Source of the DNA: Burkholderia mayonis
GTDB lineage: Bacteria > Pseudomonadota > Gammaproteobacteria > Burkholderiales > Burkholderiaceae
Reading direction: 5' to 3'
Length of the DNA stretch: 64,000 bases
Assembly (NCBI RefSeq): GCF_001523745.2
Contig: NZ_CP013387.1
Span: 1 to 64,000, forward strand
Below are positions 5,577 to 34,036 of this stretch, in pieces (the first letter of the stretch is position 1; the number at the start of each line of letters is the position of its first letter). Both the position numbers and the translations under genes were made by a program. A model generated the notes under the pieces. It searched no databases. It saw nothing but the letters and a program-made list of their open reading frames with translations, and was not told the DNA's origin.

Positions 5577-5616
5577 GGTGAGGAAATTCGGGAGTCAAAA
5601 GGTGAGGGTTGTCAGA
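5577..5616 (-). promoter_or_regulatory. Dispersed iteron copy (inverted orientation) after kfrA
   Basis: GGTGAGGAAATTCGGG at 5577-5592 is the reverse complement of an iteron (CCCGAATTTCCTCACC). A second GGTGAG box starts at 5601, 24 bp on. The site lies in the 82-bp gap between the convergent kfrA and recombinase genes and is about 1.6 kb from the main array, in the opposite orientation. Confidence 0.6.
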
Positions 5617-5634
5617 GGCTGAAAAGCCCCGGTT

Positions 5635-6678
5635 TCAAGTCTGGCTTGACGCGATCGGTGCTTCGTCGGCGAACGATTTGGCATCCGGCAGCGCATTCGC
5701 GAGGCTTTCTCGCCAATTTTTCCATGCCCGATGCAGCCGATTCGATGAAATCGGCTGCGCGAACCCCAGCCACTGTCCGACTTTCTCCGGCTCGACGCCG
5801 TTTTCGAACAGTTCGGCTGCGAACGTGTTGCGCAACGTCTGCGGACTGGCGCGCGCGGTGCGAGACTGCGCGATGTCGGCTGCATCGATGATCGCGTCGA
5901 CTGCGCGCAGCATCGTCGCCTTGTGCATCGGTCGGCCGGACTGCGCTGCGGGGAAGACGAGTTCGCCCGGAATGCCGCAGCGTTGGCGTTCGGCGAGCCA
6001 TGCGTCGAATAGCGCGATCGCGAATGACGCAAGATGCGTTTCGCGTGTGAACTCCGGCTGCGCGGCAGGGATCGTTAGCATCGTCGAACTCAATTTTACG
6101 CAACTAACCGTAAGTGCGCGCGCTTCGCCGGTTTTCAATCCGCCGCCGAGGAATGCGGCGATGAGCGCGCGATCGCGGCGTTCTTTCCAGAGCGCCGCGC
6201 CCATCGCCGGCAGCGGCGAAAACAGATACGCGAGCAACGCGGCGCGTTCGGCGGGCGCCAGAAAACTCGTCGGCTCGTTGTCGTGCGCGCTACGCCAAGT
6301 TGCTTCGCCATCCTGAGCAATGAAGCGAGCAGGATTCGTCGAGCCGAATTCACTCTTGCGCACGTGATCGAGCACGCGCTCGATGAGTCTCAAATAACGG
6401 ACTTTTTGCGTCTTCTTGATCGGCAGTTCGCTGACGAAATGCGCGATCGTCTCGGTATCGACCGCCGCGAGGTTCTTCTGTCGTTTCGCGAGCCAGCCGA
6501 GAAACGCGCCCCATTGTGCGCGGTAGACGTCGGCCGACGAGCGGCGAAATTCTTGGGCTGCCAGCCAAGCATCGAATGCCGTGTCCGGATGGCTGAACCA
6601 GTCCGACGTATCGCGATCGAATAGATCGCTTGGTATGTCGGACGGCGGAGAAGGACTCGTCAGAATGGACGGCGACAT
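5635..6678 (-). CDS. Tyrosine recombinase-like protein lacking catalytic residues
   Basis: The 347-aa product has the layout of a XerC/D or phage-integrase protein: a SAM-like N-terminal domain (about residues 35-115) and a catalytic fold (about 135-335). Key active-site positions are changed. The first arginine in the G-L-R-x-x-E motif is Lys182 (GLKTGEARAL). The HxLR motif reads QTLR, so only Arg283 is kept. The LGH motif reads LGF, and no tyrosine follows in the expected window (SSNRLHRAW). The protein may therefore bind DNA without recombining it. It sits convergent to kfrA near the origin. An accessory role in dimer resolution or segregation is possible but unproven. Confidence 0.72.
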   Translation of the reverse strand: MSPSILTSPSPPSDIPSDLFDRDTSDWFSHPDTAFDAWLAAQEFRRSSADVYRAQWGAFLGWLAKRQKNLAAVDTETIAHFVSELPIKKTQKVRYLRLIERVLDHVRKSEFGSTNPARFIAQDGEATWRSAHDNEPTSFLAPAERAALLAYLFSPLPAMGAALWKERRDRALIAAFLGGGLKTGEARALTVSCVKLSSTMLTIPAAQPEFTRETHLASFAIALFDAWLAERQRCGIPGELVFPAAQSGRPMHKATMLRAVDAIIDAADIAQSRTARASPQTLRNTFAAELFENGVEPEKVGQWLGFAQPISSNRLHRAWKNWRESLANALPDAKSFADEAPIASSQT

Positions 6679-6834
6679 GTCATTTATTCCGTTAGTTGCA
6701 ATTCATCATAGCGTGTCGCGTTCGCTCGATAAAGGGCTTCGCGTGGGCGGCGAATGTCCGGCAGATATCTCGCTGCCGGCAATCGATCGAAGTGCATGCG
6801 AGGCGCGAGCGCTCGGCCGAACACAGCCGCCTGC

Positions 6835-7206
6835 CTAGTCGCCCCACGCGCGCGCGGGGCGCGCCGGCGCCTTTTTTGCGCCGTTCTGTGCGTTCGCAGC
6901 CCGCTCGTACGCGGCGACCGCGAACGAGAACACCGCGGGCAGCGCGTTCGACCGCCCGAAGTCGACGAGATCGTCGGTTTCGGGAAAGCACAATTCGGCC
7001 GGACGGTCGAAGAGGCAGCGCACCATCGGATCGTGCCGGCTCGCGAAGCCGAGATCGGCGAGCGCTTCGGCCTCGATCGCGTGCAGGAGCCGCCACGTCA
7101 ACGGAACGCCTTGCCGGATATAGCGCTCGGCAATGTGGCGGACAATCGTTTCCATATCGTGCGCCGCAGCCTTGAAGCTGAGCGCGGCCAAATCCTGTTC
7201 GGTCAT
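6835..7206 (-). CDS. Small protein of unknown function behind a LexA-like box
   Basis: The 123-aa product is not recognised. It is mainly helical by composition, without a signal peptide or membrane segment, and ends in an Ala/Lys/Pro-rich tail. Its start lies 21 bp from a near-consensus LexA box (7228-7247), which suggests SOS control. A group II intron has inserted immediately beyond that box, so promoter elements further upstream have been replaced by intron sequence. An ORF this long with this codon use is likely real, but I cannot assign a function. Confidence 0.6.
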   Translation of the reverse strand: MTEQDLAALSFKAAAHDMETIVRHIAERYIRQGVPLTWRLLHAIEAEALADLGFASRHDPMVRCLFDRPAELCFPETDDLVDFGRSNALPAVFSFAVAAYERAANAQNGAKKAPARPARAWGD

Positions 7207-7227
7207 CGCGGGCTCCTGTTTCGCGTA

Positions 7228-32225: not shown

Positions 32226-33007
32226 TGCATGAACCAGCCGTGACTGACGATGAACGACTGGCCGGTCAGCGCCGCGCTCGGGAACGCCGACAGGAACAGC
32301 ACCGTCTTCGCGACATCCTCGACGGTCGTGAACACCCCGTCGACCGTCTGACCGAGCATCACCTTCTTCACGACTTCCTCTTCGCTGATCCCGAGCTCCT
32401 TCGCCTGCTCCGGAATCTGCTTGTCGACGAGCGGCGTGCGCACGAAGCCCGGACACACCACGTGCGAGCGCACGTTGTGCTTCGCGCCTTCCTTCGCCAG
32501 CACGCGCGCAAGCCCCAGCAGCCCGTGCTTCGCCGTCACGTACGCCGACTTCAGCGGCGACGCCTCGTGCGAATGCACCGAGCCCATGTAGATCACGACG
32601 CCGCCGCGATCGTCCCGGTACATGTGCTTGAGCGCGGCCTTCGTCGTCAGGAACGCCCCGTCCACGTGAATCGCCTGCATCTTCTTCCAGTCGGCGAACG
32701 CATAGTGCTCGATCGGATTGACGATCTGGATGCCCGCGTTCGACACCAGGATGTCGACCGAGCCGAACGTTTCGGCAACCTTGTCGATGCCGGCGTTGAC
32801 CGCGTCTTCGTTCGTCACGTCCATCGCGACGCCGATCGCCTTGCCGCCCGCCTGCTTGATCTGCTCGGCGACCGCGTTCGCGCCGTCCTGATTCAGATCC
32901 GCGATCGCGACCGCCGCGCCCGCGCGCGCGAGCTCCAGCGCGATTTCCTTGCCGATGCCGCTTGCTGCGCCTGTCACGACCGCGGTCTTGCCATTCAGAT
33001 TGCTCAT
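32222..33007 (-). CDS. bdhA: 3-hydroxybutyrate dehydrogenase
   Basis: The 261-aa short-chain dehydrogenase has the cofactor motif TGAASGIG (12-19), NAGIQ, and the catalytic Ser143, Tyr156 and Lys160. Sequence and length match D-3-hydroxybutyrate dehydrogenase, which interconverts 3-hydroxybutyrate and acetoacetate with NAD. It lies between acetoacetate decarboxylase and a patatin in one operon, which fits ketone-body or polyhydroxybutyrate breakdown. AGGAA precedes the ATG. Confidence 0.92.
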   Translation of the reverse strand: MSNLNGKTAVVTGAASGIGKEIALELARAGAAVAIADLNQDGANAVAEQIKQAGGKAIGVAMDVTNEDAVNAGIDKVAETFGSVDILVSNAGIQIVNPIEHYAFADWKKMQAIHVDGAFLTTKAALKHMYRDDRGGVVIYMGSVHSHEASPLKSAYVTAKHGLLGLARVLAKEGAKHNVRSHVVCPGFVRTPLVDKQIPEQAKELGISEEEVVKKVMLGQTVDGVFTTVEDVAKTVLFLSAFPSAALTGQSFIVSHGWFMQ

Positions 33008-33053
33008 GATCGAATTCCTGTCCAGAAAGTAGTAGGGAAGGATGCAGCGCGCG

Positions 33054-33794
33054 TTACTGCGCGAGGTAATCGTAGACGACTTCGCCGAGGCCGAGCGTCA
33101 AATCGGCGATCAGATGGCGCGCTTCGACGATCTCGAGCACTGGCAGATCGGCGACGGGCGCGAGCGCATGCGGCGCGAGCTCCAGCGACGCGGGGCCCGT
33201 CCATGCGCCCTTCATCTTGATGTCCTGCAGGTAGTAGCGCACGAGCTCGCAGACGCGCGCCGAGCCGTCGACGTGCGGAATGATCTTCAGCAGGAAGTTC
33301 GCGCCGGCGAGGCGCTTCTGCTGCTCGTCGAGATCGAGCTCCTTGTGCTTGTAGCCCATCGTGCCCGTCGCGACGCGCACGGGGCCGTAGTCGAGCGTGC
33401 CGAGCAGCGTGTCGATGTGCGTTTCCAGCGTCGGCTGCGCGAGCTTCTTCGGGAATCCCCACAATTCGCGGCCGCCTGCGATCGGCGGATGATCGTTCAG
33501 ATACATCGCGAGCGTGTAGCCGCCCGGCTGGCCGTTGTATTCGACGGGGATCACCTGTCCACTCTCGGTGTAATCGCCGAAGCCGGTCGAATCGGCCATG
33601 CGGATGAACTCGTAATGGACGAGCGGTTCCTTGACTTCGAGCGGTTCCGGCACGATTTCGCGGAGACGGTCGATGTCGGTGCGATAGGTGATGATCAGGA
33701 ATTCGCGATTGACGAAACGATAAGGGCCCATCGGAAACGCCGGGCTCGTGAGCGGCATCGCGAATGCTTTCGATCGGACTTGGCTGGGCTTCAT
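33054..33794 (-). CDS. adc: Acetoacetate decarboxylase
   Basis: The 246-aa enzyme decarboxylates acetoacetate to acetone and CO2. The Schiff-base lysine region ELWGFPKKLA has Lys116-Lys117, matching the adjacent lysine pair of the clostridial enzyme. Other conserved parts are GFGDYTE and YNGQPGGYTLAMYL. AAGGAG precedes the ATG. It is the first gene of the adc-bdhA-patatin operon. Iteron-like sites lie about 205 bp upstream of its start. Confidence 0.93.
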   Translation of the reverse strand: MKPSQVRSKAFAMPLTSPAFPMGPYRFVNREFLIITYRTDIDRLREIVPEPLEVKEPLVHYEFIRMADSTGFGDYTESGQVIPVEYNGQPGGYTLAMYLNDHPPIAGGRELWGFPKKLAQPTLETHIDTLLGTLDYGPVRVATGTMGYKHKELDLDEQQKRLAGANFLLKIIPHVDGSARVCELVRYYLQDIKMKGAWTGPASLELAPHALAPVADLPVLEIVEARHLIADLTLGLGEVVYDYLAQ

Positions 33795-33998
33795 GCGGAC
33801 TCCTTGTTGATCGCTTCGTTGTCGGGGTGCCGATATCGTATGCCTCTGCGAATCGATTGTGCGATGCCGCAACTGGAAAAGATTATTGCGCAAATCGAGG
33901 CAGTGAAATGACAAATATTGACAGTGTTGCGGACGTCGTAACGAACGCGCGCCGGCGGGTGACGGACAGCGGGTCGCCGGCGCTTCGTCGCGGCAAAC

Positions 33999-34036
33999 GG
34001 TGAGTTTTTTCGGGGGCTATGGTGAGCATTTACGGG
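33999..34036 (-). promoter_or_regulatory. Pair of dispersed iterons 22 bp apart
   Basis: GGTGAGTTTTTTCGGG at 33999-34014 is a perfect inverse iteron and GGTGAGCATTTACGGG at 34021-34036 differs at one conserved base. Their starts are 22 bp apart, the same interval as in the tandem end of the origin array. They lie in the 469-bp gap between divergent adc and the PAP2 gene; nothing else is recognised in that gap. Confidence 0.7.

Follow-up and report, generated by a model that had tools for sequence, protein, structure and literature searches.

Candidate Rep-binding iterons beyond the chromosome 2 origin of Burkholderia mayonis and beside a third-replicon origin in related genomes

The first 64,000 nucleotides of contig NZ_CP013387.1 of Burkholderia mayonis (assembly GCF_001523745.2), hereafter the window, are the start of contig C2 (2,752,114 bases) in a two-contig genome of 6.59 Mb. 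The window begins at an origin of the Burkholderia second-chromosome type, with a Rep3-type initiator gene (rep), an iteron array and kfrA. Copies of the array iteron also occur beyond this origin, in three layers. Singles and pairs lie on the kfrA side of the chromosome 2 (C2) origin, mostly within ~35 kb; a remote 23-bp array is accompanied by three opposed iterons; and, in three-replicon species, C2-type iterons, mostly a pair, lie beside the origin (ori3) of the third replicon (c3), with one more elsewhere on c3. We propose, with a probability of about 0.6, that the scattered motifs are binding sites of the C2 Rep protein, kept in place by selection for titration or handcuffing. The presence, specificity, position, orientation and conservation of the sites can be read directly from the genomes compared, many of which are drafts, and are described before their proposed role.

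Inverted iterons near the C2 origin

The iteron motif occurs far above chance expectation in the window, as a sequence-only reading of this DNA had claimed. Twenty-three matches with at most 3 mismatches are found, compared with 1.24 +/- 1.01 in shuffled windows, and 0 of 100 shuffles reach 23. On a C2 matrix built from 833 distinct array iterons of 80 relatives, the reversed window gives zero matches of at least 10 bits. The motif scan and the C2 matrix both recover the isolated inverse iterons that the sequence-only reading had listed at 5577, 19402, 19433, 25498, 33999 and 34021 (21.4-36.5 bits), including the two pairs, 19402/19433 and 33999/34021. Its statement that no iteron lies from 34.1 to 64 kb also holds, since nothing there reaches 10 bits. 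Its list needs correction in that 5577 carries 3 mismatches to the consensus, and it overlooked 24009 and the weak 5601 site as well as the array at the remote locus and the C2-type iterons beside ori3. A match at 33438 has 3 mismatches in the motif scan but scores below 10 bits on the C2 matrix.

The genome-wide scan that the same reading had suggested gives an unequal density: initiator-type sites outside the origin are concentrated on C2, the replicon to which that origin belongs, and in the neighborhood of the origin. With at most 1 mismatch, the window's genome holds 20 matches, 19 on C2 and 1 on C1, of which 9 are in the array. Ten of the 11 dispersed matches are on C2 (binomial P 0.0011 for C2's share of the genome), and the C1 match scores just 11.0 bits. 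Sites within called genes (24009, 458670, 2434439 and 2738073) are set apart as possible coding coincidences, and 24009 is possibly one. At the same threshold, 41 genomes of the genus Burkholderia (own included) yield 853 matches, compared with 16 for the reversed pattern; a stricter pattern in eight genomes yields 169 matches and 0 in the control. The split by replicon, counted by hand in 13 fully listed genomes of 2-4 contigs (the few-contig G020, G033 and G035 being left out), places 257 of 278 matches on C2; c3 or another contig accounts for 16 and chromosome 1 (chr1) for 5. In a family-wide draw of 31 genomes, two of them from this genus, 15 have any match.

The near-origin sites of the window have positional counterparts in related genomes. 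In L094, site 5577 corresponds to 2019, the interval of 19402/19433 to that of 9620, 25498 to 12140 and the pair 33999/34021 to the pair 17719/17741; 25498 and its counterpart adjoin the same gene, 19402/19433 and 9620 share a gene interval, and the 19433 site is kept although genes intervene between it and its neighbours in this comparison. The near-origin sites recur, 31-bp pair included, in genome G030, which lacks c3 Rep. Among the 27 genomes with near-origin matches listed (own included; 14 of the 41 are left out), all 111 sites within 60 kb on the kfrA side are inverted relative to the array. Their distance from the array is 2-31 kb in the window's genome and up to 46 kb across the 27 genomes, and the site in the kfrA gap lies 2.1-2.4 kb away. 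This inverted site after kfrA is present with at most 2 mismatches in 65 of the loci of the 80 relatives (29 of L001-L030 and 36 of L031-L080, the latter mostly Paraburkholderia, Caballeronia and Trinickia), and two of the 15 misses are cut loci. Furthermore, the site columns at the kfrA gap carry 1.83 bits in 29 loci, compared with 0.75 and 0.95 elsewhere.

On the rep side, 24 of the 27 genomes have one match each, in the array's orientation and 13.5-17.4 kb away. The sequence of this rep-side site is GGTGAGGATTTTCGGG in the genomes looked at, and the site, at about -14 kb, may reflect codon constraint. Two strong iterons of the window's genome, L086:5678 and L085:4411 (C2 2660677 and 2484410; 35.2 and 34.5 bits), lie far from the origin and not within called genes.

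A remote array locus and C2-type iterons at ori3

The second layer is a locus marked by a gene with CoA (coenzyme A)-binding, succinyl-CoA-ligase-like and GNAT domains, two of which are recognized by Pfam. It was read in 18 stretches, from the window's genome and 17 relatives chosen since their listings showed matches there. Three opposed iterons precede the gene in all 18 stretches, and the iterons that follow it share its orientation. In 17 of the 18, 8-18 sites of at least 10 bits follow the gene in steps of mostly 22-25 bp, with the strong sites at the outer ends of the series and mostly weaker ones between them, and the gap that holds this 23-bp array is convergent in the loci read. Fourteen of the 18 stretches place the locus on the rep side, ~128-172 kb from the origin. 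In the others it is found at ~97-101 kb on the kfrA side (G028) and ~250 kb on the kfrA side (the window's genome), and in G004 and G008 it and the origin array are on different contigs. In G030 it lies ~271-275 kb away on the rep side. The remote iteron locus is bordered by the end of an H-NS-like gene in L081:4031-4321, and the same is seen in L091.

The claim that all copies are inverted to the array stands for the window, where the sites are on the plus strand and the array on the minus strand, and for the kfrA side near the origin. It does not extend chromosome-wide: C2 sites near 250 kb occur in both orientations, and as a general polarity rule inversion is rejected, failing at the remote locus and at the far sites of the window's genome.

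The third layer lies on another replicon. A c3 Rep, 34% identical to C2 Rep, is encoded in 35 of the 41 genomes, and in 32 of these 35 C2-type iterons are conserved near the c3 origin, 1.5-1.8 kb upstream of c3 rep and always in the orientation of that gene. They form a pair spaced 32-34 bp in 30 genomes and are single in two (G017 and G023). Their distance past the first c3 iteron detected on the same strand is ~570-755 bp, except in G005, where the edge is not clear. Site columns carry 1.69 bits, compared with 0.80 elsewhere in 32 aligned pieces. The conserved columns, here and at the kfrA gap, together with fixed spacing and position, argue that the sites are used.

Which initiator would use them? 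Binding by c3 Rep rather than C2 Rep would be consistent with the homology of the two proteins and with the placement of the sites within the c3 origin region in c3 rep orientation. However, the 62 ori3 sites fail the c3 matrix (median -7.8 bits, maximum 2.9) and fit the C2 matrix (median 23.5 bits), and the opposite is true for 328 c3 iterons, which score -10.9 bits on the C2 matrix and 26.3 on the c3 matrix. We thus regard recognition by c3 Rep as unlikely and favor C2 Rep as the candidate ligand of the ori3 sites.

Across 591 kb of c3-rep stretches, one other C2-type match occurs, in G002. It belongs to a second c3 family, in which a C2-type site lies in a convergent gap in 10 of 10 stretches read; nine of these sites are on the contig of c3 Rep and that of G025 on another contig, and Pfam assigns the neighboring gene to DUF429 in L102, the single stretch tested. 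In the reverse direction, the C2 contig has no c3-type iteron in six genomes of 2-4 contigs among 11 genomes searched. Otherwise, G003 has one c3-type match with 1 mismatch on the array contig, and a few occur on unassigned contigs of G003, G009 and G021. On c3 contigs of several genomes (e.g. G010:C4:562537 and G015:C3:742248), a seeming dispersed copy of c3's own iteron lies ~11-13 kb from ori3.

A conserved crtS-like C2 site on chr1 is rejected at the stringency used, in a search that considered iteron-type sites. With the strict pattern in eight genomes, chr1 has no match in G000, G001, G022 and G023, one each in G014, G019 and G031 and at least 3 in G007. The C1 match of G022 scores 17.0 bits. 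Ten chr1 stretches were read (L088, L112, L191-L193 and L199-L203), and no position is shared beyond a methylase gene: L199, L202 and L203, from three genomes, have an iteron-like stretch in one family of D12 adenine-methylase genes. These three matches, like L112 and L193:7498, are within called genes; matches outside called genes are found in L191 (two, with an IS66 transposase gene nearby), L193:3639, L200 and L201.

Proposed role of the three layers and alternative readings

Binding of C2 Rep, titration, handcuffing and coupling between replicons are what we infer from this layout. Near-origin sites 2-46 kb away and a remote locus ~97-275 kb away place the first two layers where they would be copied shortly after initiation. 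The new copies would deplete free Rep and, joined by Rep to the origin array (handcuffing), would limit C2 to one firing per cycle. Because replication proceeds at an estimated ~33 kb per minute in B. cenocepacia, a locus 150 kb away would be copied ~4-5 minutes after firing, a delay that would suit a delayed brake. Through the ori3 sites, C2 Rep would touch the c3 origin, and c3 firing, position or copy number could sense C2. In a more tentative form of this proposal, which we consider possible but somewhat less probable than its negation, C2 Rep at ori3 licenses, delays or tethers c3, while the dispersed sites and the remote array set the level of free Rep, making up one inter-replicon timer. 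The segregation order is reportedly c1, c2 and then p1/c3, which would fit an influence of C2 Rep on c3.

The sequence-only reading had offered titration, remote handcuffing and a coupling of flanking-DNA replication to origin firing. The match to the C2 origin iterons, the enrichment on C2 and near its origin and the positional conservation are as titration or handcuffing sites should show. The coupling of flanking DNA finds no support in this analysis.

Several observations weigh against selected Rep-binding sites in three layers. The 111 inverted sites are not 111 independent events because they fall into a handful of position families shared by descent. Three of the 10 dispersed C2 matches in the window's genome (24009, 458670 and 2738073) are within called genes, the last of them (L087:8074), the rep-side site, within a squalene/phytoene synthase gene. 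The remote array is reduced to two sites 34 bp apart in the window's genome, and likewise in G030 (L194). C2-type ori3 sites are absent from G020, G028 and G034 (3 of 35), even at 5 bits, and the reversed ori3 stretches used as a control also give 1 match. On C1 (chr1) of G007, a pair 22 bp apart (L201:7566/7588; 20.7 and 20.1 bits) adjoins a ribbon-helix-helix gene, and the same C1 additionally carries a single site. Lastly, c2 foci were at times doubled before c1 according to Du et al. 2016 (PMC4948915); any coupling therefore need not be strict.

The sites could instead be architectural, with Rep bridging the origin region, the remote array and ori3 so as to position or compact the C2 origin domain, instead of serving to count initiations. 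The uniform inversion near the origin and the convergent gaps agree with this idea, as do origin-focused inter-replicon contacts reported for other large replicons, including a B. cepacia Chr2 origin that is reported to contact a large part of Chr1. However, those contacts are with Chr1, where conserved sites are not found (strict pattern in eight genomes, ten stretches), and the orientation at the remote locus is mixed. We consider an architectural role quite unlikely.

A role as C2-Rep operators that regulate neighboring genes is less probable still. Operators might be expected at the 33999/34021 pair, from which adc and PAP2 diverge, and at the remote trio, which precedes the CoA-ligase/GNAT gene. 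Nevertheless, the gap of the 23-bp array is convergent, and 19 near-origin positions read in four genomes comprise 14 convergent gaps, 4 divergent gaps and 1 tandem gap; promoter control is therefore disfavored. Furthermore, the neighboring genes have no evident function in common. The isolated sites might also be neutral remnants of ancient origin duplications or integrated plasmids, with which the reduction of the remote array in the window's lineage and the sporadic sites at mobile-looking places on chr1 would agree. This is highly improbable, since conservation is far stronger in the site columns than in the flanking sequence, the sites hold their positions even where genes have been inserted nearby and the ori3 pair spacing is 32-34 bp in all 30 genomes with both sites.

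Titration or handcuffing by C2 Rep, the reading that we prefer, has counterparts in known systems. Plasmid incA/handcuffing loci are extra initiator sites that restrain re-initiation, and incA adjoins rep. Initiator sites present in addition to those of a plasmid origin, and outside it, are inhibitory, as stated in a review (PMC6090056). The E. coli datA locus likewise provides extra initiator sites at a distance from the origin, which hold back re-initiation, but datA is described as promoting DnaA-ATP hydrolysis, whereas the sites here are spread over up to ~275 kb and two replicons. The external RctB sites of V. cholerae chrII (Baek and Chattoraj 2014, PMC3937223) are similarly initiator sites beyond a plasmid-like secondary origin, near it and on the same chromosome. 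The present case differs in its Rep3-family initiator, in inverted sites mostly in convergent gaps, in a dense 23-bp array ~100-275 kb away and in iteron-type sites at the origin of another chromid. The V. cholerae crtS site resembles the ori3 sites in that a site on one replicon acts on the initiator and origin of another. However, crtS is a chr1 site that influences the firing of ori2, whereas the trans sites here are iteron-type and on c3, with no conserved chr1 site at the stringency used.

The c2 iteron of B. cenocepacia J2315 published by Du et al. 2016 (PMC4948915), ctCCCGAAAAacCTCACCTtt, has the same consensus as the array iteron of the window. A legend of that paper mentions the second iteron cluster; its passages on the subject describe neither the arrangement of outlying copies nor their conservation, any rule of orientation or their function, and mention no C2-type ori3 sites. 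A description of the conserved layout and of the ori3 sites was not found in searches of the open-licence literature, nor was an experiment testing a C2-to-c3 link, and no title on mini-c3 replicons was found. A c1-c2 link had been thought worth exploring. For the Burkholderia strains covered by a 2026 survey (PMC13342612), the third replicons are noted as seemingly finishing ahead of the chromosome.

How origins fire once and in order in multi-chromosome bacteria is known in detail mainly for V. cholerae. The near-origin iterons, the remote 23-bp array and the C2-type ori3 sites, the last in 32 of the 35 genus genomes with c3 Rep, are a defined, conserved and removable set whose layout suggests a wiring that restrains, and perhaps couples, the replication of these chromosomes. 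They open two questions to direct testing: is C2 firing limited by remote iterons, and is the origin of one chromid controlled by the initiator of another?

Origin region and other features of the window

The origin region of the window has the parts of a Rep3 iteron replicon, namely a Rep3 (WH1/WH2) initiator gene and directly repeated iterons beside it (Table 1). Rep is 84-94% identical (best segment) across the 80 relatives kept, the closest named Rep loci belong to Burkholderia, and comparison with solved structures gives a single weak match, the pi initiator (E 0.0073). A repeat finder recovers the array, and the other repeats that it finds are unrelated to the iteron. The rep-proximal upstream site is also present in most of the 80 relatives, and the iterons at 1498 and 1611 may serve rep autoregulation. 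Genes were called with our own simple codon-usage caller, with no annotation used.

Table 1. Origin features and dispersed iterons of the window (scores on the C2 matrix)
Feature	Position	Strand	Details
rep, Rep3-family initiator of C2	1..1377	-	458 amino acids; open reading frame opens at 1482; Pfam Rep3_N and Rep3_C above cut-off
Iterons 1498 and 1611, immediately 5' of rep	1498..1626	-	24.2 and 26.4 bits
Origin iteron array, irregularly spaced direct repeats	3035..3967	-	Motif scan, repeat finder, C2 matrix
kfrA-like gene adjoining the array	4332..5552	+	Pfam KfrA_N
Dispersed iteron 5577 (and weak 5601), in the gap where kfrA and an integrase gene converge	5577..5616	+	25.9 and 12.9 bits
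Dispersed iteron pair 19402/19433, 31 bp apart, at a gene start	19402..19448	+	21.4 and 30.2 bits
Single site within a called gene	24009..24024	+	28.8 bits, 1 mismatch; also in G030
Dispersed iteron, highest-scoring site of the window	25498..25513	+	36.5 bits; also in G030
Dispersed iterons 33999 and 34021, a pair with 22-bp spacing, flanked by diverging genes for acetoacetate decarboxylase (adc) and PAP2	33999..34036	+	27.6 and 28.3 bits

Between the rep promoter and the main array, positions 1640-3030 contain 7 GTGAG and 6 CTCAC half-motifs in mixed orientation, which are perhaps half-iterons or a second kind of Rep site. The distance from the array to the rep-proximal site is only ~0.35 kb in many Burkholderia loci, compared with the 1640-3030 stretch in the window. 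Short repeats in tandem also occur in the window at 30065-30153 and 27998-28089; they consist of GTTCGAC units in head-to-tail order and of a GACGAGACGCTCA-type repeat.

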